From contig JABAKD010000002.1 of the NCBI GenBank assembly GCA_012845835.1, positions 16,508,129 to 16,572,128 on the forward strand: 64,000 nt of DNA, written 5' to 3'. Source of the stretch: Undaria pinnatifida. Taxonomy: Eukaryota > Sar > Phaeophyceae > Laminariales > Alariaceae. The notes below the pieces were generated by a model. The model searched no databases and was not told where the DNA came from. It was given only the letters and a program-made list of their open reading frames with translations. Of this stretch, positions 39,870 to 64,000 are shown one piece after another (the stretch's first letter is position 1; each line of letters starts with the position of its first letter). The position numbers and the translations under genes were made by a program.

Positions 39870-39930
39870 TCACGCGGACGAAACGGTGTAGAACGCCTGC
39901 ATTCCAGCCAGGATGTGGTCGTTTACATGG
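39870..39930 (-). CDS. Gene C exon 10 in window (C-terminus)
   Basis: Acceptor GTATTGCAG. One base completes Cys327, then [19 protein letters not shown] and TGA. It carries H328, H332 and M337. Confidence 0.92.
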
Positions 39931-42900
39931 CTGCAATACAACGCAAACAAAAACACACCCAGCATTTCAATATCGGTGTCGAAGGTAAGGAAAGAAGGGG
40001 GGGGGGGCAGTAAAGAAGGAGCCAAGAGAAACGACAAACGGGGCGGACGATCCAGCAAAACCACCGATACTTTCATCATGCAGTTTGCTCAACCAAGCGT
40101 TAGATGCAACGACATAAGACACGCGATACTTCTAAAGGTTTTACGTTTTCATCAACCGGGTTGTTTTTTAACTCTTTGGTACGCATGTATATCGGATATA
40201 CAAGAGGGATTGGTATTACACATGGTATACGCCGGTAATCACCCGTAAATACAGGGGACGTTAGGTAACTTCAAAAACCGCGGTAATATAGAGGTAATAT
40301 ATATGGTCCCGAATGCCCCCCATAATAAAAAGCGAAGATATTTCGATACGACAATTCACATATAAACCCACCTCTCATCGCATGCATACACTATGGTGAG
40401 TACGTACCGGACACATCACACGTTACATACGTGTTTCGAGAAAGTGGTGGAAACCCGGGGGTGCTTCTTAACTGTCCCCGATATTGCGGTAAACTACCGG
40501 TACCTCGTAGGGGTAATATACCAAAAGCTGATTAGAGGTAATTACCGGTAGGTAACTGATCGACCCATTATTTATCTTTTATCCCTGACATACAACGAAA
40601 CATCGTCTGCCTTGCGGCCCACCGGAAACTCCGTAGTACATTTAAAACACGGTGTCTGGTCTGTCACCGGTTAATGAAGCGAACGGCAACACGTTGTTTG
40701 CTAGCACGGCACAGCACGGCACAGCACGGCACAGCACGGCACAGCACGGCACAGCACGGCACAGCACGGCACAGCACGGCACAGCACGCATGTCAAGGTG
40801 TAGAGGGGCGCCGTTTTTTGCTGAGGCTCCTAACCACTTGAGGATTTCCATACATTATACCACATAATATACACCTCGCACCAAAAAAGCCGATTTCGAG
40901 TAAACTGAAAATGCAACTTGACGAACAGAACCCATGAGCTAGAGGCACACCATAATATTGTCAACCACAAAACAAGACACTTCAACGATGTTCGGCTAAG
41001 GTAGGTTAAGATGGGTTAAGATGGGTTAAGACGGGCTAAGGTAGGTTAAGATGGGTTAAGATGGGTTAAGATGGGTTAAGATGGGTTAAGGGGCCCCGTC
41101 AGTCAGAACACAAACAGTTTCGCCCCAAAAATTGATACCTCTATTGAAACACGCGTCCACACTTACTTTCACTCTTTAGAGACAAACTCACCAATGAAAC
41201 CTGCCAGACGAGGCCGTGGAGTCGGAAGGAGGGGAGGGGCGTAGTTGTGCCAGCGCCGGCGGTTGGAGCACAGAAACCGCAATATTAATCGCAACCAACC
41301 GTGATGTCGACAGAACGGAACGGACAGAGTGAAAAAAAAGCAAGGGGGGAGGACCGTCAAGAACTATAAGAGCATGTTCATATATATAAACAAACCCCTC
41401 ACCTAAAGCCCTTCCCCCCCCCCCCCCCCCCGCCCCCCGCCCCCACCCCCCACCCTCCCCCCCCAACCCATCCCAACCCCACCCCCTCGAACACTCCACC
41501 CTCTCTTTACTCACTGATTGTACGACTTACCCCAGAATATACACGATAAACTGATGTATTATTTCCAAAAATGTCACATTTGTCCCCTCGAAATAATGTA
41601 TAGTTTCCAGGCACATATCGAGTTGCCCCCCCCCCCCCCCCCCCCCCCCCCGCCCCCAATAATATACTGGTGCCAAAACCGTCAGATTTATCCCCTCGAA
41701 AGGATTTATAGCTTACATGCACAAATTGCCCCTTTCCCCCCCCCCCCCCCCCGCCCCCCTCCAAACCCGCTCGCTTTTGATCAAAACCAGGCCCCCCCTT
41801 TGCCTTCACAGCTGTCAGATTTTGTCCCCCTCAGAAACGGGTTTTTTTATAGTTTCCGCGCACAGACTGACTAAAATCATCCTGTTGACCCTGATAGCTA
41901 CACTGTAGCTGTAAGGGGAGTTGCCGACCTATATCCTTAATGAGGACACACAACTCGTAATGCGCGCGATCGGAGTATCACACACAGCTTGCAAAGATGA
42001 GTTTCGACGAAATCTTCGATCTCACAGCTGGAGTGTATTTTAATTTTTATAATATATTAGAAAAATTAAATACCAGGCATGGCCAGGTTATACAGTTGCA
42101 CGCTTTCGTATTCAAAAGGCGTATCTATTGCTTCAGTGTTTTTGCGTACACACCGCCGTTGTTAGGCATAATTTTCCTGGCATTTTTTTCTTCGACTCCA
42201 GAGTTGTTGGAGCTTGTACTCTGTTGACCATGGATTTTTCTAGATGATGGCGATGACTTAATACACTTAATACACGAGCACAACAACAATCCATTGGTGA
42301 CGCGTGCTACGATGGAGGTGCTATAATGACACTTCTGGCCATACCATTGCCTACCGAGGCGACTCCTCAACTAGGGAACTCGCCTGCATTGTCGCTGTTT
42401 TCTTTTTCGATATAATTATTATTTATAGACTACATAATTATTATCTATAGTCTATATAATATTATCTATATGTAAGTCGCCTATTATCTATATATATAAT
42501 TATTATCTGTAGACTAGACTATATAATTATTATCTATATATAGTCATTCAGGCCATAGTGTTATTATCATAGTTATTGCTAGGCCATACATAGCTATGGC
42601 ACGGGATGGCTCATGGGACTGCGCTTTAGTGTTTTTAAGCAGTCAGGTTCGGGGTTCGGCATATGAACCTCCTCAAAAATGGACCCCGACAACATTGAAG
42701 CATTACCCCCATCGTAGCTAGGAATCGATCTTGAAAACGCGCCAACGAGTCAACGAGATTGCTAGCTACTGCGGACTAAGGACACACGGTGTAGGGGGGG
42801 TACAGTACTCAGCTTCACTGCTGGGCCTGGGCCACTCGCCTGGGTGACTCTGTACCTCACTGTGAGTAAAGTCTCCACGTAATTTGCTCGGCGCAGCGAG

Positions 42901-45900
42901 GCTAACCGTTCCATGGCGGTGTCATATCGAAAGTAAAGGTGTTACAGGTGATACAGGTGTTACAGATGATACAGGTGTTACAGATGATACAGATGATACA
43001 GGTGTTACAGGTGTTACAGGTGTTACAGCGTAACACCGCAAAGGAAGAGGAAGGTCACAATCGCGCGAGCGAGCCCTGGTCACAGCAAAAAGAGACCCCC
43101 TTACAATAGGCTTGGTCTTGTTTGATTACACCATTACAAGATTACCAGAAGAGATTATAATCTTATAAGACTATAATATTAGAAGATTAGAAGGTTAGAA
43201 GATTAGAAGGTTAAAAGGTTAGAAGATTAGAAGATTATTAGAATATTAGAATATTAGAAGATTAGAAGATTATTGTAAGACTGAAAGATTAGAAGATTAG
43301 AAGATTATTGTAAGACTATAAGATTAGAAGATTAGAAACTTAGAAGATTAGAAGATTAGAAGATTATTATATTATTAGAAGGCTCCTAAAGTGGGGAAGT
43401 TCATAAAAAGCAAGCGCTATACCCTTACCACTGCATGCGTCAATATTATACATACTTGAAAAGATCTCAACAAGACGCCTGGCTACTGCGGTGTAAAAGA
43501 CTACAAGCAAGTGCTGGCTCCCTACTCCCGTACCCACAGTTAAGCGAACGGGACGGTATCAGGGGTCATGATTGCTATCAGGAAGTTCGATGGCAACAGC
43601 TCAAGAGTGTCTGCCGTGAGGAGCTTTAGATCCACCAGGTTCTACCCGTACCGTATCGTACGTGTGTACCAGGTACAATGCCGAGGCTGTGTCAAGGACT
43701 ACTAGTGGCTATCCTGCAAAACTCACAGCCAAGTGCCGACGGCATCGGGGGTCATGATAGCCGTCAAGAAGGTCGACGGCAGCAACTCCAGGGTGTCGAC
43801 ATTCTTCTCCTCGAACAAGACGTTGTTGCCGTGCCAGTGGGCCGTGTGAAGGTCCACCTAAATGCAACCGCGGGGGGTGGAGGGGGAACCGCAGGGCTCG
43901 AGGCGATGGAATATCGAATGCAAGCGATCAAAAAGCAAGAGGGGGATGGGGTGTACTCCTTACCCGCACCCGTTTCGAGGCGGAGACCAGCGGGGGGCGG
44001 GGGGGGGGTCATATCATACATGGACATGGTCGCAAGACCATAGAACCTCGCTTCCTTACAATCCCCGGACGGAGCACGTTGGGTTTTCAATGGCCAGTGA
44101 TGTAAGTCGTAAGACCATAGAACCTCGCTTCCTTACAATCCCCGGACGGAGCACGTTGGGTTTTCAATGGCCAGGCATGTAAGTCAGGGAAGGGGAGCTT
44201 GGTGAGGAGGGTTGAGGGGTACGTCGACGACATATTTCCGGGGCCACACAGGTGCGGAATGCAGGCTGTTCAACGCGTATTAGAGCATCTTGGGGTGGGG
44301 GGGGTGGGGGGCTACACGTGGAGGTTCAGGCTTCTCGTGTACCCGGGAAGGTTGGGGGGCGAAGAAGGAGCATACACCATGAACAACTCACCAGCTAGCG
44401 ACTGAATCGCATCATATATCGCCTCCCCTCGTACTACTAGCATCATAGATAATCGCGCAGCAGCGTGTGGTTGTGTGATTGCCGCTTCGTGTTCAACGCA
44501 TGAACATGCTTGCGTGAAAGTGGCCAATGGCGTCAAATATCAATCTACCCCGCACAGGGCAACGGTTAGTCCCGTCTCATCTCGACATTTATGCACCGCC
44601 ATGGAATTATTCGTTAAGCTCGAGGTTTTGAACGAGGTACAAGGCCGTGTCAGCGTCTTTAATTGATCAATTGTATCCTGAAGCCGATAGTGAACACGGA
44701 GTTACCCCCCCATATCTTCGCTCGGATCCCCAGCAAAGAACAAATGGGCGGGAGAAAGGATCATCGCAAGTACACAGCACAAGCAGTACCGCGACCAAAC
44801 GTGTTCGGACGGTGCCGCTGCCGTGCCATAAGCAGTGACGTGCCAGCGAATCCAAATAACGTATCAACGTATCCGGCGAAGCATAACCGCACGCTGTCCG
44901 TCTCGACAACGAAGTAGATCCTCACAACAGAATGCACAGGTCGGGTGACAGCGCCATCGCATTTGGCAGAGCGCCACAGCCAAAAGTGTCGGGAGGGTGT
45001 GGCTATCCCTCACCTCCGTGCCGTAAGCGGCTACGTGCCAGCGCACGGTGTCTCCTTCCCTCATCTCCAGACCGGGCAGGTTACCGTACAGGAAGCCATT
45101 CATCGAATGCATCAGGTTGGACTCTTCGAAATCCTGGAAAAAGCGAAAGGTAGTAAACGGATTGTGGTACCGGTAGGGATTTCATCGGGCCCATTATCCG
45201 CGCACGACATTTTCCGGGTGAAGCTTGTGTGGCGAGGTTCTCTCCCTCCATCGGGAAGAGATGCTTGCACCAAGTGCCTGATTGGAACAACACTTTCTGG
45301 CCTGACTGAAGCGGCTCCTCACTTATTTAATATAGTCAGTTGTGGATGTCGGCCCCCCTTCCCATATATGGCGTTACCGCCTCATTAAACACAAGTTCAG
45401 GGTCACCAGAGACCCCAGACTCCGTTCCGTGTGCCGACCCGTGGTACCGACCCACCTCGGTGTGTACTCCACACCACAGCCAACCACACAAAAGATATAA
45501 CCTAGCAGGGGTACAGCCTCACATTGGCGTCGACGGCAAGACACAGCTCCACACAATCACACTAAAGATCTACCCAATGCCGTTGGAACACGAGTACAAT
45601 TTGGTATATTAGCAGCAGCATTAGTGTAGTATTAGTATAGTGTTAGTGTAGTATTACAGTAGTGTTAGTGTTAGTATTAGTGTTAGTGTCGTATTCGATA
45701 AAGAGTCAGTCCATGGGATAGTTCAGCATGTGCCACTTTCATTTCCACTTTCATTTTATCGCAAAAGCCCTTCTTGTGCGGGGTATGGGGCTCATCAAAT
45801 CAGTAACCCCTTCAAAATTAGGTGCATCTGCTGCCACCGTGGCGTACTTCCAAGCGCCCGTGGAGAAAACACTCGCGATGGTGGGAAAAGACGAGGAATA

Positions 45901-48900
45901 CTTGAAAGGGCGCTTGTGTGGCCATACCGTGGGGGCTCACAATAGTGCCTGTTGAACAGTTGCCGCTATAGTGCCGGTGAAATCGCTTGGCACGGCTGGA
46001 ACTCTCTAAGCGTATAGAAACTCTCTAAGGTATCCCTATTCCCAATGGTGCTGGACTCCTCAATAACGTCCGTATGTTGGGCTAGCACATATCCGCACCT
46101 TTGGGAAGTCCCCACTGTATGTGGGAGTAAAGCATATAATAAATAAGACAGGGAGATAATTATCGTAGGAGTGATCAGGGTGGGCGAGATGACCACACTG
46201 CCTGGAGTCATCTCGAAAAGACGCATACTCTACATGTATATGTGTGCTTTACGGGATGTTGTACTGGCCGGCTGTCCGCCCCACAGTAACATTCCCTGGT
46301 ACTCACAACATGGCAGGATAAGCAGACAGTACGCACCTCGTGAATTTCCTGGTGGGGATCTAGTTACTGTATTCCACGAACAATATTGGGAAAAGTTTGT
46401 TAGCTATTAGGTTATGAGCCCCGTCAATCCGAAAAAAATTGGTCAAAAAGAGGTACTGTACTGTGCTGTATCCCTATCGTAGCCCGCGTTCGTAGCGGTT
46501 GGCGTGGTTTGCGGACAACGGTCACGTTTTGTTGGCCGACTCACCTCGTCATCAGGGTCGCCTCCAAAGATGTCGATGTTGGTCTCCAGGTAGTGCGACT
46601 GGTTCTCGTCGGACACCATAAACAGGATAATGAACTCTTCGTCCACGTCCTGCGAACGCAAGCGACGAGAGTGAAGTCATTTTTACCCGCACAGGTGGTT
46701 TATTCATAGGCACGGCATTCCAGGGCAGGCGAAAATGCTTTTTCTGTGGCGCTCCTCACTTCAAAAGTTCCACAACCAAACGTTCCATACCCAAAACCTG
46801 AGTTTGGGGAAAAGAAAAAAAGACGCGGGCTACGATAGAGGTGCACTAACCATTGTTGTTTTTTCTAATACTAATCCTCAATTAATTGATATCTTAAGAC
46901 CTTCTCCCGAAAACTGATTTGAGGAGAAAAGAAAAAAAAAAACGCGCCACCGCGGATAAAAAATCCCATGGCCTAGGTAGGTACACAACGAGAATTATGG
47001 GGGAAAGAATGTCCTATTATTATTTTATTTTCCGACGATTGTATTACCAGGTTAAGGAGCCCCGTCATTCAGAAACCATTTCAGACGAAAACTGCTGTGA
47101 TACCTCTATCGTAGCATGCGTGAAAACGGTCAACCAAAATCAACAACCCCATGGTCTTAGCGTGCAAAACAATCATATTGCAAACAAAAATGGCGTTTTT
47201 TCCGACGATTTGGGGCTAAGGATCCCTGCCGTTTCAGGAAATGTTTTAGCCAACAAGTTGTACGCTTATCGTGGCACCCGTCAGACTCAGGGTATGGCAT
47301 TGGGGGGGGGGCGTAGTCATCATATCATGCCTGGCCGAATCATGCATTGCCGTTGTCCGCAGGACCATATACCCTCGCATTCTTACAATGCCGGTCATGG
47401 CCATAATCCGTAGGACTGTAGATCCTCGCGTCCCTACAATGCTGGGAGGGGGTGGGGGGAGGGGGTACTCCGTTGTTGCTTACGTTAGAAATTCGACCGT
47501 TGACCACGCGTTCCTTTCGAGACGGAGCACCTAGGCTGCGGGAGGGGTCAGCGGGGGGGGTGGGGGAGGGGACGTCCTCTGTGTAGCTTGACTTAGTCAT
47601 TTGACCATTGACCACGCATCCTGTTCGAGACGGAGCACCGGTCTTCTTCCTAGTAAAGACACCTCCAACGTTTGGGTGTTCACCACATGTCTTCCACATA
47701 TTACATAAAACTGTTCGTTTACCTTATTTTCCTTCCTGTTTGGCGGTCTGTGGCCACCATCTATCTCCTAGGATAGCGATAGTTTTCTCGCTACTATCTA
47801 CTGCACTAATGTTCTCCATCTCACATACATCCGTTTATTATCCTCGTCTCCTCCTCTAACACACTCCGCTCCTCCACGTACAGTTCACATCCTCCCACCA
47901 TGTGGAGACTGCGGTAGAGAGGGGTCAAGTTTAGGGCTTGCGCGAGACGCGTGCTACGATAGAGGGAGCAATTTTTGGCCTTTTTTTTTGTGAATGGCAT
48001 GATCTCTTGACCCCAAATCGTAGGAATGTCGCTCATGTTTTGCATTGTGGATATTTGTGGTACTGCTGGCCATGGGACTAGTCATCGGGTTGCACTTACT
48101 TCCAGTTTGTTCAAAACTAGTTTTTGTGTGCGGTGCGTAGAGATCCTCAAGCGAGGAGCCGCAAGAACAAACTTTGCGCCTTTACTGCTGTAGCTTGTCC
48201 CGCGAGATGGTGCCCTAGTTCTTAGCTATCTTAGGCGGTGCTTGAGGGACGAATTATGGCAGGGGTGAGACGCGACAAAAGCACCTGAAAACGATGACTC
48301 GTACAACATGACGGAAGCCGCTTTTTTTTGTCGGGTATCTACAGAGTGTCACATCTGCAACTCGTTTTGCATGCAACACTGTCCTGTAGTAGTCAACAGT
48401 AGTAGTGGGAACAGAATCGCCACCAACAAAAACAAATTAAGACAACTGAAGTTATATAGGACCTCCAACCACGGGCAGCGGGCTTTCTCTGCGGCTGAAC
48501 TACACGTAGCTATCCTTCTTGTCGGTCCTCGTCTGCAACACCGGTTGCTCCACCCTGACACCACAAATTCTGGGGAAAAGTTTGCAGTTTGATACACATG
48601 GCTCTTCAAAATGAACGCCACAAGAAGGTTGCGAACATGAGTTTTGACGAAAGCCCTCCACCTCACAGCTGAGGGTTTTTTTTAGTTATCGAAACCCGTG
48701 CCGAACACACTGTAGATTATGGCGACAGAGAAAAAAATGGCCCGCTTGGCAAGTGCCAAGAGCCGCAAGTCAAATGATTGGCTCGATCGCCCTGGTTAAG
48801 AGTTTGTGCGATGCCTGAGGCCGATGCTGCGGTACCGTAAGGGTCCTCTACCCCCTTTTGGCCACTTTTTTGCAGTGGCTCGGGGTCACTTGCACGAGTG

Positions 48901-51900
48901 AACCCCCTGCCTGTTCCTTGCTGTCATACGCTTTCGTGCTGTTTTAATATTGCGATATGAATCCCCAATCTGATGGTTAGCTACTCTGCGCCAAACAAAC
49001 CGCCTAACTGTTTTTTCCTCAGTGACGTACAGAGTCACTCGTGCGAGTATGATAGTATATGGTAGTATGATAGCTCAGACACGACTGTGAAAAAGGGGGT
49101 ATATCATAACAGCAGTGATATCATAACATCCTCCCTACCGTACGTAGCCATGATCCTCAAACTCGCCACCTCGAAATTCCTTCTGGCCACGATCAACACG
49201 CTTAATGGAATCGTACCACCCAGGTTCGGCTCTTGGTATGTATATGTATATATAAAACTAAAACATAACAGCATTGTTGAACACATATCAGATGGATTTG
49301 CACTTCGTTCTCTAGATTATGTAGAAATCGTAGGTACTGTCATCAAGAAGAGAATTTTGTGACATGAACACACACATATTGCTGCCGTTCATGCGAACCT
49401 TATGAATATGTTGTTGTTTTTGCGTTAAATTTTCCGAGTGTTAGGTTTGCAGCGCTACGCTGTAAATGCCCTTCTAGCTACTGACTGGTAATCGAGGGGG
49501 GGCGTGTTGGATTAAGGACATTGAGGTTCGTGCGTATCTAGCGGATGTGCGGTGCGGATACAACCACAAGTACGCTTAGTAGTTTGTTTCGGACATCGAA
49601 TGGAGGCGATGTGCGGCGAGAGCACGAGCGTGTTCTACTTCTTCGTTCGGCACATTGTACAACCAATGTGCCTCTACGAGTCGAGATGTTGTTTCTATTG
49701 CAGAGCTGCTAGCTCTCCATCGCAAGATCAGAAATTCTTTGCCGGAGGACGGGCAGTCGGCCAGTACTGTAGCCCGTAGAGCACGTCTGCGCGTACTGTG
49801 TGCTCTTTCCCGAGGTGATCCGGCGATTGTCAGCCCCACCCTGGTCAAGCTCTTTACGTTTGTCTATCTCACGATCTTCTTCGTCTCCATATGTGGCCGT
49901 CTAAGCGTCTTTTGAACCAATCCCTTTTCTTTATTATCACAACTTTACCAGACATGTAGTTAAACTTTTACCAGTCATGTAGTGCCACTTCTGCACCTCT
50001 TCTTGTAGAGACAGCCCCGACACGCAATATTGTTTCAAACGTCACATAACCTTATATGATACTGCTGTGTTGTGTCGAACAAATGCTTGTAGTTATGTCA
50101 AACCTTGATTACAGTTGTGGTGAACGATACTTACCGTGGGCATCCCGTTCTTGTCCAGAACTCCTTCCTCATAGATGATCAAAGGTCCGATTTGCCCGGC
50201 GTACATGTCCGGGACAGAGTCGACATGCCCGTGGTAAAACCTGCGAATGATATGAACACATACCAGACAGCAAACGGTATGACAAAGGTAGAACGTTTCA
50301 GGCGGGAAGGCAACGTTAGCACACGTCAAACGGAACGGCAAAGATAGCACGTGAAAGATGATAAGGCATCCCACGAAGGCGCAGTGAATCATCCTCCGCC
50401 ACCTCGCGGGGCGACAGCACTCGAGCAAGCTCGATCAACTCACGGGACGACAACCTTGGACGCCCTGGCCTCAAGAAAAGTCTTCAAGAGTACTACCCGG
50501 GCCCAGCCCATCTCGGATTGAAGTATATGTATGATGCCAAAACCGAGCCTTGCAGCTCTGGCCTCTACAACAGCGATGCCTCCCCACCCCCCACCCTCCC
50601 TCCCTAAGCGATACAACTCTTACATTTGCGGCTGACCACAATAACATGGTATTTCTATGTGATACGATGTTATTCCTAAATGATATATATCGACACGTTA
50701 TTTTTGTAGACTGTACCTGGCACGGCGTGTTACTTCTTAACAATACTGTAATGATATGCAAGTTCTGCATAAAATTTTTGTTGTAGTTTTCTCATCAAGG
50801 AGGCGTATTGGAACGTCGATTTTAAAGTCCATCTTAGAATATGGCATGCTAGTTCTACATAATGGCATTGCCACCGCCATACAACGAGTAGTAGTGTATA
50901 GTGCTGTTGTTGTACGAACAGCTACGAAACACAGGAGTGTGTGTGTTGCTTGATGTTTTGTGTTCTTTCTCTGCACTCAACCAAGATTAATTTTGACACC
51001 CCTTGGCAGTGCTTAATGTTGCAATTACTGCCTCTGTTTGCCTATGACACCCCCGACCGTTACGTGCATGCGCGGAGCCGCGGCGGGCTGCGAAGCCCCC
51101 CTTGTAATAGCATAATAAGTATACATAATGACAAGAATAATCTGCTCTTTCTCACCAGAGGTTGCTCCGGTCGCCCCCAGTCGGCCCAGAGGCGTCCCTC
51201 GCGGTCCACTCGTAAGTAAAGCTGTCGCCGGGAGCAACAGAAGACCCTGGGAAGTTGTTGAGCCTCCAAAACGTCCCTTCGTTCTCGGGGGTGTAGAGCA
51301 CTCCATGGGGGTGCATAGAGGCAGGGAGGCTGTCGGAGAGATGCAGGTGAGGGCGAGCACAATATTCAATCGGTGTATTGTGTTAGCTTTTGTGTAACGC
51401 ACCATCGAAAGGGGGCATGAGCATTCTTCCAATATTGGAGATAATAATGAACTGTGCTTGTCGGGAGGTAAATGAAATGATCACGATCATGTATGCCTGG
51501 CACGCCGTATCGCAAGTTTGCTGCGCGTTCGGAGGAATTTAGGGGAGAGGGGGGAGGGGCTGTTATGGCGAGGAAGTGGCTGCATACTACAACTAAGAAT
51601 ATGCGCCGTGACTATGCACGGAGGAGGGAGTGTCAGTGGGGGTCAAGCTGTCGAAAGTTCCCTGTTGCACTCTAATGGAAAGGGAACGACATTCAGACGT
51701 TACGTCAGGTTTCTAATATTTTGAAGCCACATAAAAGCAGAACCAGTATGTGCGTCTGTTTTCCACCTCGTATTGAATGGACACGCCCAAGAAGTCCGAA
51801 AGGTCGGACCACAGTCACGTATCACTGCTGTGCTAGCATATTACCGGCATCGCACGTCTACTGCATCCCATAGTATTATGCGGCTCGAACGCTCGCTTTG

Positions 51901-53892
51901 CACTCGCGTGAACACTCATGTAGTTGCCATGTACATCCCTCCAACTATACGGGTAGACTATAGGGTACGAACACCAGGGTTCAGAGAGCATGAGAGTGCC
52001 GCTAAACTTACAAGGAACTCAGACTGGATCCAAAGGAAGATATAGAGAATTCAGCCTTTAGACAAGCCTAAACATGGTGATCCCTGGAGATCGTTGTGTT
52101 TGGTTACTTACCTTCTTGGAAATGCAAGGAAAGAAGCGCGTGCACGGTTGGCTTACTTTTTGCATCCATCCCGTGGTACTATTAGCTCAGCCCTTTTCTC
52201 GCTAACGTTTTTATAGCTTGTTTAGGCCTATAGGTAGGGGTCGTTCGGCCAGACAACAACAGCGAATGGCCGTAAGTTCGATTCCGGGTTTCATCCCGGA
52301 CAAACCCCGTCCTCAATACCCGTGAGGAGCTCCTCATGCCGTACCGTATTGTCGACGTGGGGAGTGAAATTCCATCCCCGGATAAAACACCCTCCAAGGA
52401 CCATTTGTGTGTGTGAAACATGTTTCATTGTTCATGGGAGATACTCACTCAGTGAACATAGACTACCCGTGTTACACATGTATCAAATAGTGCAATCCAT
52501 GGACCATGTGTGCCGCAGTAGTAGTTAATTTCTTGCGTTTGTTTTTGCCATCCGACAATGTGCAGCATGAGATCAATCATGAACACTCCCAGAAAGACGG
52601 CTTCTTCTGAATGGGAGACACTCACTCCGGGAGCATGTTCTTGAAGTGGACCATGATCGTGTCGCCGACCTCGGCTCTTATGATGGGTCCGAGGTTCCCC
52701 GCCCACTCCGGCGCTTCGATCTCCGTCGTGTACGTGTCATCCGTGTACTCTTTGTACAGAGACTGTGCGCGGTCGGGAGGAGCAAAAAGAAATCAAGTGC
52801 ACGCAGCATATTAGACTACGGATAGCGTGAAGGAAGTTAGTAGTCTATACTCCTGCTACTGCTGTGCATCCCCCCCACACCCCCCGTCTTACCCCTACCT
52901 CCCCTGCCCTATACTACAGCTATACTACAGCAGTATTTGTACAAAAATGTGACGGATCCCTTCCTTTTTGTTGCATGGGGTCTACGGGAGCACTTGTTGT
53001 ACGATTTTCCAGCTAACATACACCACTTGGTGCTATGTACTCAGATACAACTGTCCAAAGCTTGCGAACTGCTCAACGAGACACAACAATAGGCTGCCAC
53101 TACAACACCAGTAGCACCAAACGTTTATTTAACGCATAAACTTTCATTGTGGAACATGCCGGTAGATCGTACCTGGCTTGTAGCATCTATCTGCTCTCGT
53201 TTCGTTGCTCCTCCTGCATATATGTTCGCTACAAATTTGCCACAACAGTATTAATAGTAGCACGATGTCGGTAAAACGGCCCGTCGGGTCCTTTCGCGGT
53301 ACGGTACGCAGCAGACATACATACGCGGTGAATAGCGGTATATCGAGCGGAAGGTGGGAGGGCGGAGACCTTGATCGCGCCAGACTAACTGTTTCAACTC
53401 GACTCTCGAAACGAACCCACCCCTCGGCCATTCCATACCCAACACCTCTCAGTGGATATGACAGTGAGTATCACGCCATGGGGTACGATGGCAGCATACA
53501 TACGAGACGGTTGTATCTGTCTCTCTCGTGCTTGAAATAGGTGGATGGGTGGCGAGGGCAACACTATTAATACTACACTACAGTCTGTAGTTAGTACTAC
53601 GAGTAGACTATAGCAGCATATATTTAGCAAGTTCGTTTTGCGTGACGGAGGATCCAAGTTTCACACACGCACCAAAATTCCACGGAGAGGCCAACTTGCA
53701 CCTACCTACCTACATTTACCTTTCTTCTGTACCTGCCTCCCGCTTAGTGTCGACATAATAACCCATCTTCTCCCATGCTCATCTATCTACCTTCTAGACT
53801 AGATTATACTCTTAAACCCTAAAATATTCGCATGGCAGGAATTATAATAGCATTCAAAATGTGATACTAACAACAACATTAACAACAACATT

Positions 53893-55532: not shown

Positions 55533-58500
55533 TTCCCCCCCCCCCTTCCGCCTAGTTTGTCCAAACGCCCCACTCACAATCGAAATCGGCCAGAGTAAAA
55601 AAAAAACCTCCAACGCCCCCTCTTTTTCAACCACCCGCACGATCGCCTAGACCTAGCACCACGCGTATAACAAGCCCCTACATATCTTTGATCTCACAGC
55701 CGAAGTGTATTTGAATATTATTTGTGACCTATACCTCTTAAAAATCCCCCCCCCCCTCCCCCCCTTCTCGCTCTCCCTTGCTCAAACGCCCCACCTAATA
55801 TCGAAATCCGCCAGATTAATAAGCACTTGACGCACTGGATATCACCTCATTATCTTTCGAGAGCCATCCATACCGCTGCTTTCCCCCCCCCCCCCGCCCC
55901 GAACGCCCCCTTCTTCCCCACCACCCGCACCATCGCCTAGACCTAGCACCACACGTATAACAAACCCCTCACCTAAAACCCTTCCTCCCCCCCCCCCCCC
56001 CCCCCGCCCCCTCCCCCGCCCCCACCCCCTCGAACACTCCGCCCTCTCTCTACTCGCTGATTGTACGACTTACCCCAGGATATACATGATAAACTGATGC
56101 ATTCTTTCCAAAACCGTCACATTTATCCCCTCAAAATAATGTAGAGTTTCCACGCACAGATTGAGCTGCCCAACACGCCCCACCCCTGCCCCAACCCCCC
56201 ATGATAAACTGGTGTATTTATTTTATTTTATTTCTTTATTTCTTTCTTTGTTTCTTTATTTATTTTTCCCCAAAACCGTCAGATGTATCCCCTTGAAAGG
56301 ATTTATAGCTTACACGCACAAATTGCCCGCCCGTCCGCCCCCGCCCCCCTCCCCCCCCCCCCCCCCCTCCAACCCCGCTCGCTTTTTATCAAAACCAGGC
56401 CCCCACGGCCTTCAAAACTCCGCCCCCCCCCTCACCGGTTATTCGATTCACAGGATTCACTTGATAGAAGGATACATTTCCCTCCACAGCTGTCAGATTT
56501 TGTCCCCCTCAAAAACGGGTTGTATAGTTTCCGCGCACAGACTGCCTAGCATCACCCTGTTGACCCTGATAGCTACACTGTAGTTGCAAGGGGAGTCGCC
56601 GACCTATATCCTTAATGAGGACACACAACTCGTAATACGCGCGATCGGAGTATCACACACAGCTGCAAAGATAAGTTTCGACGAAATTTTCGATCTCACA
56701 GCTGGAGTGTATTTTCATTTTTTATAATATATCTACGCTGAATCATCTGCGGTCAAATTTCAAATCAAACCAAGCATCAAAACCAGAACCTACGAATAGC
56801 CCGGAGTCGCCGGAGTATGCCCGAAAAATATGGCCGGTAGACTCAAGTGAGATACGATTAACTGGATATTAAGAGACGCGAAAACAAAATGTTGTGATGT
56901 TGACTACACAGGCCACCACTTCGAGGAGGGTATCGCGCTTCAAACTCCAGCTTAGGGACCGCCAGGAAGCGAGAAGGAGCAGTGGCTTCCAGGGCAATAC
57001 CATAGCACAGAGGGGAGAGGGGAGGGGGGGGGGGTGACAGACCCAAACCGATGGGCGTCGGAATGGAGCCCGGATGCAGCTTGGGATTTAAGAATTTTAG
57101 AGAGCGCGTACGTATTGAGAAGGAAGGAGCGAATAAATGGCAACAAATGGAGTACTCTAATGTATCTAGATAAAGAGGGAAGAAGGCATCATGTAGCAGG
57201 GAGATAGACTTTTGTAAATAAAGTTTCCTTTGTATTTCCGAGTTTTTTTCGTCTTGATGGAATGTAATGTGTGATCAACGTTGAAACTTACACTCACACC
57301 GCACATTGTTGGATGCAAACATAAATACAGCTTGCAAAGATGAGTTTCGACAAAATCCTCGATCTCACAGCTGGAGTGTATTTTCATTTTTATAATACAA
57401 GAATAACATTTTCGTTGTGTGTGAAGCTCTCTCGCCTTCATGTACTCAGGGACTAAATAAAGCGACGTTATTCAAACGATGGTGATACTGAGCTCGCTTT
57501 CACGCATGCATGTATTTCTGGCACATAACAAGTGGCGTGAATCTGATGCAATTGAGATACAATACAGCAACAAGTAAGAGGTATTGAAACAACAGCGGCA
57601 TTGACATGAAATAAGCAATAATGTAATATGTAGCAGCATATTATATGGATAGATGTAGATCTTGCCTTCATGTACTTCTGTCCAATAAGCGACTCGGTGT
57701 CGTCGATGAAGACCACGGCATCCTCATTGTCCAACAGAGGGACACCATCGATCAGATCGTTGCCCGTCGGTGCGTAGTCCCACTCGACCTGTGCAACATA
57801 TACGACAACACACGAGAACAACGGCGTTTACGTCGAGAAATAACGTGGATCTGAATACATGCTATCAACAGAGATACACGCAAGGGTCCAGCGCTCTACA
57901 GGCACAGCCAGCAAGCAAATGGCACAGAGGCAATATGAATATATAATGAAAACCGCATACCAGGTATACCCATAATATACACCACATTATGTACTAATAC
58001 TTGGTAAGGCATACATATAGTGTAATAGTCTAGTCTAAACCCCTACCCATATTATTGTATCTGGCATATTGTATATGCACACACGCCCTGATTCCGGCCC
58101 CTATTATCATGGTCTTTGTGGCCAGGTTAGGGCTTAGGCTTCTGGTCCGGTTGGAACCAGCTACCGCTTCTTTTGTCTACTTGTCTTGCTCGGCAATGTG
58201 TCTGGCATCTCTGCGCGCGGTCCGACGTTTGTTTCTGAAACCATTGGGCCTTTTGTTTACCCGCTGTGCCGAAAGTACCGTTGTGTCGGTATACCAGTGT
58301 ACTTCTGTCGGTAGAAGATTATTATAAAAATAAAAATACACTCCAGCTGTGAGATCGAAGATTTTGTCGAAAACTCATCTTTGCGAGCTGTGTGTGATAC
58401 TCAGATCGCGCGTATTACGGGTTGTGTGTCTTCATTAAGGATATAGGTCGGCGACTCCCCTTGCAACTACAGTGTAGCTATCAGGGTCAACAGGGTGATG

Positions 58501-61500: not shown

Positions 61501-64000
61501 TAGGGTTTACGTCTCTACAGACAAGCCGTATGTACGCATTGAGACCACCTACGTTCTTATTCACTAACCGACCTGGCGCTTACTAAATACCCGTGTTACG
61601 TGCTCCATGGTGGCGCGGTATAACATACTAGGAGTATTGCATTTTGAGGGGACACACTTACCCTCGTTTTCCGTGTGTGTCTTGCGGCCACATCAATCTG
61701 TCTGGCGGAGGAAACGCCGTGTGGTCGGTTCTAGGAGAGTATGGCCTATCATTCACTTTACCAGGTGTACCCTTACCAGAGAGGAACGCTTTCTGACCGC
61801 CGTAGCACACCGCCATCACAGACCCCATAGCATAGACTAGATAGGTAGAATAGGTTTTATAGTAGGTTTTATAATAGGTTTTATAGTAGGTGTGTGCTGT
61901 GGACAACATCGATCAGCCCGTGTTCCTTTTCGCGCTTATTATTAGCCGAATATCGATTACGGATTACCGCTCACTACGTAGACTATACTAATAATAATCC
62001 TATACGACTACCGGTTTATCCGTTCTGCGACGACTCTAATAATATAAAAAATTAGAATACACTCCAGCTGTGACATCGAATATTTTGTCGAAACTCATCT
62101 TTGCAAGCTGTGTTTGATACTCCGATCGCGCGTATTACGGGTTGTGTGTCCTCATTAAGGATATAGGTCGGCGACTCCCCTTGCAACTACAAACAGTGCA
62201 GCTATCAGGGTCAACAGGGTGATGTTAGGCAGTCTGTGCGCGGAAACTATAAAACCAGTTTTTGAGGGGGACAAAATCTGATAGCTGTGGAAGGAAATGC
62301 ATCAGTTTATCAATTGAATCCTGTAATTCGAATAACCGGTGAGGGGAGGGGGGGAGGGGGGGAGGGATAGGTGGGGCAGCTCAATTTGTGCTTGGAGACT
62401 ATTATGTTCTCGGTTGTGGCCGCCGCGCTCGAATGATTACGTACACAGCGGGTAGTGAGTACGAGCTAGTAGTGATTAGAGCCGGTCGCCCGGGTTGCGT
62501 ATCAGGTTATAAATCGAGCCTGGTATATAGGTCAGTTTCGTGAGTTCGAATCTCCCCAAGTGCATACTCGTATAAATTCGTGGGGACTTTTTGTTGTGTA
62601 CAAATTGACGTGCGGAGAGCGCGCGAGCGTGAGCTAGCGACACTCGATGAAAAATCGACGAGCAGTGGGATTGCTGAACCCTATGCGCGATAAAAGTTGA
62701 AGGCAAGAACCGGGGGGTTGAAGGGAAGACACCTGTGACCATGGCTTGTCCGGAAGGTGGAAAGTAAAAGTGTGTGAAAAAAAAAAAGGGTAGAGTGTGT
62801 CCTACACAAAGTTTTTCCGACCAAATTACGACTACTACTACGTAGTACGTGAGGCAGGATTTATCCTACAACACAGGACAGCTTCATCAGCATAAAATAT
62901 ATATGGTGTTTCTGCGTTTCGCCCAAAAGGCGAGCTCAAAGCAACACTTCGAAGTATTAACTTCCAACTATCAAGTAGACTATAATATTAATAGTGCTAT
63001 CAGTTATCACCATCATCGTGTACTTTGCGTCATGTATGGATTCAAAACCCATTCATCATCGTGATTTCACGCGCAGGTTCGAGTCCTGCCGACGACGCCA
63101 TTTCCTGTCCCCTGTACAGGTCTGCCTACCTATTAGGCAGATCCTCGGTGAGTACTCACTTTCTTAGCCGCGTGTAGTAGAGAAGCAGCTTTATTATTTC
63201 CACAGAGCCCCCCCGAATAGCAACCGAGAACCGAGGCGCATGCCTCGTTGTCACTTCCTGACTACCCCGAATAGATATCGCCAACATATCATCATTCGGA
63301 AAACGGCCAATTACCTTTCAAATCAGATAATTGCAGGCCTTTCAAGGCCGTACCTTGACGATGATGTGCCAGGTACTTGGGTATTACATAGTATAGTAAT
63401 ATTAGTGGTATGAATTTAGTATGAATAAATAGTACCGCCAGATATTTAGTGTAGGGGAAAGTTTACCTGGTGTAAGATGTAACATACCTGGTATAAGCTA
63501 TAGTTTATGATATTTACCGGCAATCAATGCAGTCTAGGTATTAATAGTAGTGTGCAGGTGGAAGTAGTGTCCTATAACATGCTATTAGTGTTTAGTGAGG
63601 TATTAAAATAGCATACACCACTTACTTACTTGTGAATCTAGCAAAGATCAAGATAGGTAGGTGCGTATAGTAGTATTAATAGTGGTCTGGTGGTGTTGAA
63701 GTCTACGGAAAACTCGGTTGATTTTTGTACCGTCCGCGCGCTTTATATCGTATGCGTTTCAGTGTGATCGTGGTGTAGTTCTGACTCGTACATAAACCGT
63801 TCCAAAGTGCGCGGATACGCGGCAGACACAAAGATTACTATAAACACAGAGTAGAACAACAGCAGTAATTGCAGTATAGCAAATGTAATGGCAACCGAGT
63901 GGCAACTACGATTAATAACTCACGAGTTCGGTGGTGATGTAGAAGTCCCTGACGGTGCTGGTAGGTGGCTTGTTGCGTCGCCCGGAGTTTTTGCCCCTCG
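39870..64000 (-). CDS. Gene C: ceruloplasmin/hephaestin-type multicopper oxidase, C-terminal 346 aa (10 exons, 5' end outside)
   Basis: Join in order: 64000-63924 (partial), 57788-57666, 52762-52626, 51329-51156, 50240-50135, 46649-46545, 45133-45014, 43857-43727, 41200-41192, 39930-39870. All phases agree. Family hallmarks: [38 protein letters not shown]-like [29 protein letters not shown]. Copper ligands are complete (numbering from the first in-window residue): HPHG (118, 120), HGH (173, 175), HTAHWHG (284, 287, 289), [12 protein letters not shown] (326-328, 332, 337). Type 1 copper would use H284, C327, H332 and M337, and the trinuclear site the other eight His. The Asp in HVNDH sits where ceruloplasmin has HVTDH. 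The protein ends soon after QAFYTVSSA with no membrane anchor. The family oxidises Fe(II) with O2, outside the cell or in the secretory path. Ferroxidase activity is inferred, not shown. Upstream exons may add a signal peptide or more cupredoxin pairs. Confidence 0.92.
40705..40790. repeat. 'cacggcacag' 10-bp tandem repeat, 8 perfect copies
   Basis: Nearly error-free, so recently expanded. It lies in the last intron of gene C. Confidence 0.97.
41000..41092. repeat. 'ggttaagatg' 10-bp tandem repeat, about 9 copies
   Basis: Two variants (ggttaagatg, ggctaaggta) about 100 bases downstream, in transcript order, of the gene C microexon. Confidence 0.95.
41192..41200 (-). CDS. Gene C exon 9: 9-nt microexon completing the HCH copper motif
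   Basis: On the complement: CTGGCAG | GTTTCATTG | GTGAGT. Exon 8 ends TGG CT and exon 10 begins C CAT GTA. Direct joining would give W-L-H-V-N-D-H, missing the invariant residues. Inserting these 9 nt gives W-L-F-H-C-H-V-N-D-H. It has perfect splice sites on both sides, exact phase and the exact missing residues. Confidence 0.88.
41395..42060 (+). mobile_element. R2 element, long copy
   Basis: C-rich tracts (runs of 15-24 C) alternate with units 'gataaactgatg', 'tgtcacatttgtcccctcga' and 'tatagtttccgcgcaca', then the conserved about 190-bp end (41,880-42,055) closing with 'tttttataatat'. It is non-autonomous: no transposase or reverse transcriptase ORF. Confidence 0.8.
42405..42560. repeat. 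AT-rich 'attattatctatagacta' repeat
   Basis: About six imperfect units, containing the tagactatagtcta word also scattered elsewhere in the window. Confidence 0.85.
42945..43028. repeat. 'ggtgttaca / gatgataca' 9-bp tandem repeat
   Basis: Nine or so units; simple sequence in gene C intron 8. Confidence 0.92.
43140..43390. repeat. 'agaagattag' AT-rich tandem repeat
   Basis: Runs of 8-10 bp units with longer 'attattgtaagacta' spacers, 140 bases from the decayed exon copy. Confidence 0.92.
43530..43640 (-). pseudogene. Decayed duplicate of gene C exon 8
   Basis: On the complement it reads VDL, then [20 protein letters not shown], against exon 8's [20 protein letters not shown]. The segment encoding HTAHWHG and the next residues is deleted, the GTW end is replaced by a stop, and the acceptor AG is lost. 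Confidence 0.85.
43727..43857 (-). CDS. Gene C exon 8 (HTAHWHG)
   Basis: Acceptor TGCATTTAG, donor TTGGCT|GTGAGT. It encodes 43 codons plus CT. It carries H284 (type 1) and H287 and H289 (trinuclear), and the [20 protein letters not shown] strand pair. Confidence 0.93.
44030..44180. repeat. About 73-bp tandem duplication (R3 module)
   Basis: 'aagaccatagaacctcgct' through 'gggttttcaatggccag' occurs twice, nearly identical, so it is recent. Confidence 0.92.
45014..45133 (-). CDS. Gene C exon 7
   Basis: Acceptor CTTTTTCCAG, donor GAG|GTGAGG; 40 codons, phase 0 both ends. It contains NLMHSMNGF and YGNLPGLEM, typical of the second cupredoxin domain of a ceruloplasmin pair. Confidence 0.94.
45615..45690. 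repeat. 'tagtgttagtgtagtat' short tandem repeat
   Basis: Simple sequence in intron 6 of gene C. No other feature is seen from 45,134 to 46,400. Confidence 0.85.
46425..47260. repeat. Several copies of the 'gctacgat' dispersed repeat
   Basis: Blocks with 'gccccgtcaatccga', 'gatacctctatcgtag' and 'catggcctaggtaggtacacaacgag' repeat in both orientations around gene C exon 6, which itself is unique. Confidence 0.5.
46545..46649 (-). CDS. Gene C exon 6
   Basis: Acceptor TTCGCAG, donor GAG|GTGAGT; 35 codons, phase 0 both ends. [20 protein letters not shown] followed by LETNI is the inter-domain segment seen in ceruloplasmin and hephaestin (F-x-V-x-DEN-x-S). Confidence 0.93.
47455..47900. repeat. 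Dispersed repeat R1, copy 3
   Basis: 'gaccacgcatcctgttcgag', 'cacctccaacgtttggg', 'ggccaccatctatctcctag' and 'gttttctcgctac', in the same order as at 8.2 and 16.1 kb. Two R3 modules lie just before it. Confidence 0.75.
48600..48680 (+). mobile_element. Degenerate R2 end
   Basis: 'gttgcgaacatgagttttgac', 'gaaagccctccacctcacag' and 'ctgagggttttttt' align with the R2 end. The two opposed ORFs at 48.3-48.66 kb are not supported. Confidence 0.45.
50135..50240 (-). CDS. Gene C exon 5 (HGH)
   Basis: Acceptor ATTCGCAG, donor ACG|GTAAGT. One base completes Trp170, then [19 protein letters not shown] and LII. It carries H173 and H175 of the trinuclear site. Confidence 0.94.
51156..51329 (-). CDS. Gene C exon 4 (HPHG)
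   Basis: Acceptor CTCCGACAG, donor CTCTG|GTGAGA; 174 nt. [12 protein letters not shown] supplies H118 and H120. [10 protein letters not shown] follows, the usual strand before the second HxH. Confidence 0.94.
52626..52762 (-). CDS. Gene C exon 3
   Basis: Acceptor GCGCACAG, donor CCGGA|GTGAGT; 45 codons plus [16 protein letters not shown] and [17 protein letters not shown] are signature strands of the first cupredoxin domain. Confidence 0.94.
53870..53995. repeat. (CAA)n microsatellite with ttaacaa and gacaac variants
   Basis: About 40 triplets in gene C intron 2. Confidence 0.95.
54820..55180. repeat. Two nested local duplications
   Basis: A 58-bp unit 'tatgactaacgaggtaacgta' occurs twice at 54,838-54,920, and an about 125-bp unit ('gtgcatg', 'cacatcacctcgc', 'cgtataattagcgatgtcag', 'atggtaact') occurs twice at 54,975-55,175. 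A shorter relative is at 54,590. Confidence 0.85.
55360..56740 (+). mobile_element. R2 element, longest copy (about 1.4 kb)
   Basis: Several internal units ('gtttccgcgcaca', C runs of up to about 30, 'cctagacctagcaccacgcgta', 'gttgaccctgatagctac') end in the conserved R2 end at 56,550-56,735. Confidence 0.8.
57320..57400 (+). mobile_element. R2 element end fragment
   Basis: 'cagcttgcaaagatgagttt', 'gatctcacagctggagtgta' and 'tttttataata'. Confidence 0.75.
57666..57788 (-). CDS. Gene C exon 2 (GC donor)
   Basis: Acceptor TTGCACAG, 41 codons, donor ATGAAG|GCAAGA. No GT is available at the in-phase end, and joining at GC gives [14 protein letters not shown], matching the family spacing. Starts VEWDYAPTG. 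Confidence 0.9.
58315..59340 (-). mobile_element. R2 element, long copy with three internal units
   Basis: The conserved end (58,320-58,500) is followed by repeated units with 'tgcgcggaaactataaa', 'ggaatgcatcagtttatc', 'gtacaaccagtgaggagagg' and G runs at 58,668-58,692 and 59,316. Confidence 0.8.
59680..59800 (-). mobile_element. R2 element end fragment
   Basis: 'gtgagatcgacaatgaaaag', 'tcgaaactcatctttgcaag' and 'gatacttcgatcgcgcgt'. Confidence 0.7.
60183..60999. mobile_element. Non-autonomous Tc1/pogo-like DNA element, 813 bp, perfect 26-bp TIRs
   Basis: TA|CAGTACTGGGCCC... at the left and the exact reverse complement ...GGGCCCAGTACTG|TA at the right. CAGT ends flanked by TA are typical of Tc1/mariner/pogo elements. 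Both sub-terminal regions contain about six copies each of 'atagtgcaggt' in direct and inverted order, including a perfect 16-bp palindrome at 60,267-60,299. No transposase ORF is present. Confidence 0.85.
62040..62400 (-). mobile_element. R2 element copy
   Basis: The conserved end at 62,050-62,220, then 'ctgtgcgcggaaactataaa', 'ggaaatgcatcagtttatca' and a G-rich tract. Confidence 0.8.
63036..63100 (+). tRNA. 3' half of a tRNA-Leu(CAA)-like sequence with encoded CCA (5' half missing)
   Basis: Anticodon arm atgga-ttcaaaa-cccat (loop with CAA), variable arm cgtga-tt-tcacg, T arm gcagg-ttcgagt-cctgc, then cgacgac-g-cca. The long variable arm and the CAA anticodon suggest Leu. Upstream bases show no D arm and no 5' acceptor strand pairing with cgacgac, so this is a tRNA fragment or retro-copy, not a working gene. 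Confidence 0.45.
63924..64000 (-). CDS. Gene C first in-window exon (partial)
   Basis: Open to the window edge, donor [30 protein letters not shown] leads directly into VEWDYAP of exon 2, phase 0. The segment before VRDFYI is basic and Pro/Thr rich, like a linker or N-terminal region. Confidence 0.88.

Follow-up and report, generated by a model that had tools for sequence, protein, structure and literature searches.

Whether nine bases lying far from any other exon can form a genuine coding exon, and one that carries part of a catalytic site, is the question raised by a locus in the brown alga Undaria pinnatifida. The window, that is, the whole stretch of 64,000 nucleotides analyzed here, holds a multicopper oxidase gene in which the original prediction had placed most of a histidine–cysteine–histidine (HCH) motif on a 9-nt microexon. 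Direct reading of the window sequence located the nine bases, GTTTCATTG, at 41,200–41,192 on the minus strand in the context cag/GTTTCATTG/gtgagt, in exact agreement with the predicted exon, its coordinates and its CAG and GTGAGT flanks. Based on their position, splice signals and phase, the restored motif, the failure of every other route tried and a diverged paralogue, these nine bases are very probably a genuine coding microexon, the ninth of ten exons, and obligatory for a functional mRNA of a two-domain ceruloplasmin-like oxidase.

The gene lies on the minus strand, as do all features of it given below, and runs from past the right edge of the window down to 39,870, with ten exons and nine introns. 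Exons 2–10 are wholly inside the window, and their splicing gives an open frame of 321 residues ending in a TGA stop. The exon numbering of the original prediction holds, since exon 1 ends at 63,924 and continues beyond the window edge. The 3′ end of exon 1 (63924..64000) encodes a hydrophobic signal-like stretch followed by RDFYITTEL and ends at a GTGAGT donor. It was not found by a motif search in the window and was identified by similarity to the paralogue stretch upstream of exon 2 (blastp E value 4.7e-10, among the matches listed). The open stretch of this exon (63924–64000) contains no in-frame ATG, and the corresponding paralogue stretch (L101) does contain one; the 5′ end of the window gene may possibly include an upstream coding exon, or the start may have been lost.

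Exon 2 (57666..57788), which ends with GQKYMK, and exon 3 (52626..52762), which ends with HFKNMLP, each have a paralogue exon of equal length. The donor of exon 2 is a GC site (AAG/GCAAGA, at 57665–57660), and the paralogue has GT at that position. Splice reading and the paralogue together defined exon 4 (51156..51329) with the trinuclear-site motif MHPHG, exon 5 (50135..50240) with the trinuclear-site motif YHGH, exon 6 (46545..46649), exon 7 (45014..45133), exon 8 (43727..43857) with LHTAHWHG, which contributes type 1 and trinuclear His, and exon 10 (39870..39930), which carries the second His of HCH, the type 1 His and Met and the stop. Decayed partial exon copies were observed in two introns. 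A degenerate copy of exon 8 lies in intron 8 at 43611–43552 (60 nt at 80% identity) and runs into an in-frame stop; it was also matched by a genome search with the spliced protein (C26:16551680-16551769). By hand count, 8 of its 12 differences are synonymous; it differs by 12 bases from its own exon 8 and by 14 from that of the paralogue, a divergence that may place its origin at about the time of the gene duplication. Intron 7 likewise contains a short decayed remnant of the end of exon 7 at 44848–44821 (86% identity over 28 nt). Pfam analysis of ten open reading frames of at least 150 aa gave no family at E 0.01, the Rfam search gave no match at gathering scores, and no tRNAs were found.

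The predicted gene product is a two-domain, ceruloplasmin-like multicopper oxidase. The Pfam domains Cu-oxidase_3 and Cu-oxidase_2 follow each other in the spliced protein, which consists of two cupredoxin domains and nothing more, with the signal-like exon 1 at one end and the stop in exon 10 at the other. The copper motifs HPH, YHGH, HTAHWH and HCHVNDH...M provide all expected ligands, namely, four HXH motifs and the type 1 His, Cys, His and Met in domain 2, with no Cys in the motif of domain 1. The roles of these ligands and the typing as an enzyme with type 1 copper in domain 2 only were presumed from what is known of ceruloplasmin and then read off the alignment to its repeats. Each two-domain ceruloplasmin repeat aligned end to end with the 280 of the 321 residues used as query, with E values down to 1.4e-192 over three repeats. 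The six-domain architecture of ceruloplasmin and hephaestin is absent, as the window gene encodes two domains and the paralogue aligns over the same length. Removal of the three microexon residues lowered the Cu-oxidase_2 score from 45.6 to 22.8 bits, which is above the cut-off of 20.4.

The closest sequences found belong to prokaryotic multicopper oxidases that likewise have two domains, with type 1 copper in the second, and that share the HCHVNDH motif. Eighty relatives were kept of 97 found with six search peptides, FHCHVNDH among them, and the closest showed about 50–51% identity over the compared or aligned length. In 79 of the 80, the alignment columns of the microexon read [FY]-H-C followed by H, and the frame of the 80th (L066) stops earlier; as FHCHVNDH was itself a search peptide, the residues, and less so their spacing, were favored by the selection of relatives. 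HCH is uninterrupted in one frame in these 79 enzymes, whereas it is split by introns in the window gene, which has nine. A further known system is that of ceruloplasmin and the coagulation factors V and VIII of vertebrates: the motif HCHVTDH of the last ceruloplasmin repeat aligns to HCHVNDH, but ceruloplasmin has six domains and the window gene two. An 84-row tree with an arbitrary root placed both algal proteins in one group, with the prokaryotic rows and opposite the three ceruloplasmin repeats, which form long branches; such a tree would fit a history with or without horizontal transfer. A search of viral contigs gave 11 pattern matches with no relative among them. A phylogeny of the family reports eukaryotes with three- and six-domain forms only (PMC3600357, in part), whereas the window gene appears to encode a eukaryotic oxidase of the ceruloplasmin type with two domains, its sequence being closest to the prokaryotic enzymes among those compared.

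In this gene, exon 8 (43,857–43,727) ends with ACT TGG CT/gtgagt, and exon 10 (39,930–39,870) begins with gcag/C CAT GTA AAC and continues with GAC CAC. The interval between them is 3,796 nt, and the microexon (exon 9, 41192..41200) lies inside it far from both neighbors, with introns of 2,526 and 1,261 nt on its sides. When exon 8, GTTTCATTG and exon 10 were joined, the phases fitted (2 to 2) and the product read W-L-F-H-C-H-V-N-D-H. The nine bases finish the Leu codon, encode Phe and His and supply two bases of the Cys codon of HCH. Direct joining of exon 8 to exon 10 stayed in frame and gave WLHVNDH, which lacks the Phe, one trinuclear-site His and the type 1 Cys. The computed splice thus reproduced the exon ends TGG-CT and C-CAT, the restored motif and the in-frame skipped form without type 1 Cys and one trinuclear His that had been proposed from the sequence. 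The exon has the properties of an ultra-short coding microexon, being at most 15 nt long with canonical AG and GT flanks and a compatible phase; its inclusion is required for a conserved protein motif, and it is conserved between homologous genes, namely, in one paralogue of the same genome. Because the microexon supplies the Phe, the first His of HCH, which is a trinuclear ligand, and two bases of the type 1 Cys codon, its inclusion would be required in a functional mRNA.

The paralogue was found when the genome (G000; 511,146,479 bases in 68 contigs) was searched with the spliced protein as query. At least 17 matches were obtained among the best candidates, nine of them to the window gene (one being the exon 8 remnant) and eight to the paralogue, which lies on the same contig and the opposite strand about 0.9 Mb away (C26:17,473,455-17,487,650, exons 2–10; loci L098 and L099). 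A search of the whole genome with the PF07731 profile gave no match at E 0.001, probably because the exons are short. The paralogue and window proteins are 87.5% identical over 321 codons, with dN of 0.067, dS of 0.74 and dN/dS of about 0.09. Exons 2–9 of the paralogue have the same lengths as those of the window gene, and all eight intron positions compared are kept. The introns themselves are mostly unalignable, with a blastn match in one of eight pairs (36 nt, intron 7), and at seven of eight positions the paralogue intron is the shorter. The gene looks intact. Within its exon 8 to exon 10 interval of 1,271 nt, between introns of 750 and 512 nt, lies a microexon in the context cag/GTTCCATTG/gtacgc (C26:17487063-17487071), which encodes the same F-H-C and differs from GTTTCATTG by one synonymous base. 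Its computed skipping is likewise in frame and gives WFHVNDH, without the type 1 Cys and one trinuclear His. This second copy is the strongest evidence for the window microexon.

The resemblance could in principle be accidental, the nine bases being intronic noise and the gene either a pseudogene or one that reaches HCH in another way, an explanation we regard as extremely unlikely. The decayed intronic remnants of exons 7 and 8 and the lack of an in-frame ATG in the open stretch of exon 1 would fit a pseudogene, but the dN/dS of about 0.09 argues against it, and the nine exons of the window gene are open and under constraint. As to another way of reaching the motif, contiguous HCH codons (CAYTGYCAY) are absent from the 3,796-nt interval and also from that of the paralogue. 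Among one-intron routes with GT or GC donors and AG acceptors, four reach HVNDH in frame, none of them with HC before it. Two-intron routes were enumerated from 28 donors inside exon 8 or directly downstream of it, with middle exons of at most 90 nt and one exon 10 acceptor; only six of the 55,169 gave HCHVNDH, and all six pass through 41,200–41,192, so that none avoids the nine bases. Within these six, W-L precedes HCHVNDH only with the exon 8 donor given above. One upstream reading of exon 10 resembled the motif and was rejected, being T-rich intron sequence with wrong spacing. As to intronic noise, the pattern NTTYCAYTG occurs once in the interval, as the microexon itself. With its splice dinucleotides (AG-NTTYCAYTG-GT), it was present in 3 of 3,000 Markov-simulated 3,796-nt intervals and, in a second run, in 12 of 8,000 (0.0015); a relaxed pattern allowing several hydrophobic residues in place of Phe was present in 32 of 3,000. 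Across both strands of the 511-Mb genome, the pattern was counted 160 times, which gives about 0.0006 expected per 3.8 kb, and the pattern read backwards, as a control, was counted 327 times. For the 1,271-nt paralogue interval, where the same nine-base exon is found, the expectation is 0.0002 from the genome count or 0.0006 from simulation (5 of 8,000).

Splice sites were scored with a small matrix built from 16 sites of the other introns of the window gene and the paralogue. With this matrix, the microexon donor ranked first of 280 GTs and the acceptor third of 175 AGs in the interval, and no second AG...GT pair spaced 3–60 nt equaled the microexon at both ends. The best-scoring donor of the interval argues for efficient inclusion in the window gene. 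By the same matrix, the paralogue donor GTACGC scored last of 18 and its acceptor 15th of 18. The 3′ splice site of the window microexon (41201..41363) is a CAG that follows a 161-nt AG-free zone with pyrimidine-rich stretches, the seventh longest of 3,546 AG gaps on the strand, and the paralogue acceptor follows one of 185 nt, the longest of 897 in a 17-kb stretch. In a comparison of 18 acceptors (nine per gene), made post hoc once the first value was known, these two zones were the longest. The 60 nt before three of nine exons, the microexon included, align between the two genes above the best of 500 random pairs, and because of this shared sequence before the microexon acceptor, the AG-free zones in the two genes are not fully independent. 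A long AG-free zone indicates a distant branch point, and in human exons, zones of at least 100 nt accompany alternative splicing (PMC1431707, in part). As four further acceptors of the 18 have zones longer than 100 nt, the feature is non-specific and was given little weight for regulation.

With the microexon included, the HCH codons would be interrupted by two introns 9 nt apart. The splice-site complexes of both introns could not sit on a 9-nt exon at once, so the flanking introns would probably be removed sequentially. In plants, introns flanking such exons are likely removed one after another (PMC8831610, in part), and the same order is assumed for the window gene by analogy. Inclusion in the window gene would be helped by the strong sites and by the long AG-free zone before the acceptor. 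The skipped product would stay in frame, have no type 1 copper and have a broken trinuclear site, and it is provisionally taken as a splicing error.

The original prediction had gone further and offered skipping as a possible on/off switch, by which condition- or tissue-dependent inclusion would turn copper binding and oxidase activity on and off. Both paralogues stay in frame when the microexon is left out, which would allow a shortened protein to be made, the low-scoring sites of the paralogue microexon would favor skipping there, and one transcription factor of Trichoderma is known to be switched by a microexon (PMC11121469, in part). The window microexon, however, has high-scoring sites, and plant microexons are said to show intron retention more, with skipping in animals (PMC8831610, in part). 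The 161- and 185-nt AG-free zones would suit a switch, given their association with alternative splicing in human exons, but zones longer than 100 nt also occur at the four other acceptors noted above. A switch is thus considered unlikely, with constitutive inclusion as the simpler account. The two views can be told apart by a prediction, namely, that the paralogue, with its donor last and its acceptor 15th of 18, should skip its microexon more. Two-domain multicopper oxidases that hold type 1 copper only in their second domain are homotrimers, with trinuclear sites between subunits. If the algal enzyme is such a trimer with shared trinuclear sites, a folded copper-dead subunit might even be made on purpose by skipping and poison mixed trimers, the window gene with its strong donor being mostly on and the paralogue with its weak donor prone to skipping; this idea we consider improbable. 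A further possibility is a recursive-splicing ratchet, in which CAG/GTTTCA would let the long intron go in two steps and the nine bases would be a recursive-splice exon whose donor GTGAGT competes with the regenerated GTTTCA. In favor of a ratchet, the nine bases start with GT in each of the two genes, and those of the window gene lie between introns of 2,526 and 1,261 nt. As a donor, however, GTTTCA looks weak compared with GTGAGT, and splicing from it would remove essential residues; the paralogue introns of 750 and 512 nt are short, so that a ratchet would be unneeded there. Since Phe demands the T and Leu permits G as its third base, CAG/GT may be incidental, and a ratchet appears very improbable.

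A microexon with catalytic residues has a precedent in plants. In acid invertases and fructan exohydrolases of family GH32, the 9-nt mini-exon 2 carries the DPN of the β-fructosidase motif (PMC4477480 and PMC8831610, both in part), and loss of the mini-exon in chicory 1-FEH IIb gives an in-frame, transcribed and presumably dead enzyme (PMC4477480, in part). Like this mini-exon, the window microexon is nine nucleotides long, in frame and the source of an active-site residue; unlike it, the microexon belongs to a multicopper oxidase of a brown alga instead of a land plant and has phase 2 instead of phase 1. The GH32 DPN mini-exon is the closest precedent, in a different enzyme family and probably a different lineage. 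The GH32 mini-exon was left unannotated in rice and maize (PMC8831610, in part), and by analogy with this plant literature it is plausible that standard gene predictors would miss the window microexon, as the original prediction held. Plant AP2-domain genes share a 9-nt microexon in the core of the conserved domain (PMC8831610, in part), but that exon has phase 1 and encodes part of a DNA-binding domain with no active site. In Xlr2 of Trichoderma virens, the presence or absence of a microexon likewise decides a functional domain (PMC11121469, in part); regulation was shown experimentally there, whereas for the window microexon it is a hypothesis only. In the open-access literature searched, no report of a multicopper oxidase with a 9-nt microexon was found. 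Judged by titles and the beginnings of abstracts, the same literature contained no laccase microexon of this kind, no case of skipping of a catalytic or active-site microexon, and nothing related on brown-algal microexons, including none on Ectocarpus micro-exons. Among the matches listed, a study of iron uptake in Ectocarpus mentioned a multicopper oxidase only as part of a general model of uptake (PMC3904714, in part).

To our knowledge, the plant GH32 enzymes are the one known case of a 9-nt exon that carries catalytic residues. The window microexon would add another enzyme family, in a lineage, probably the brown algae, unrelated to land plants. A gene model omitting GTTTCATTG would make a complete copper oxidase look dead. 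The two paralogues, with their unlike splice-site strengths, would provide a natural test of whether active-site microexons act as switches.
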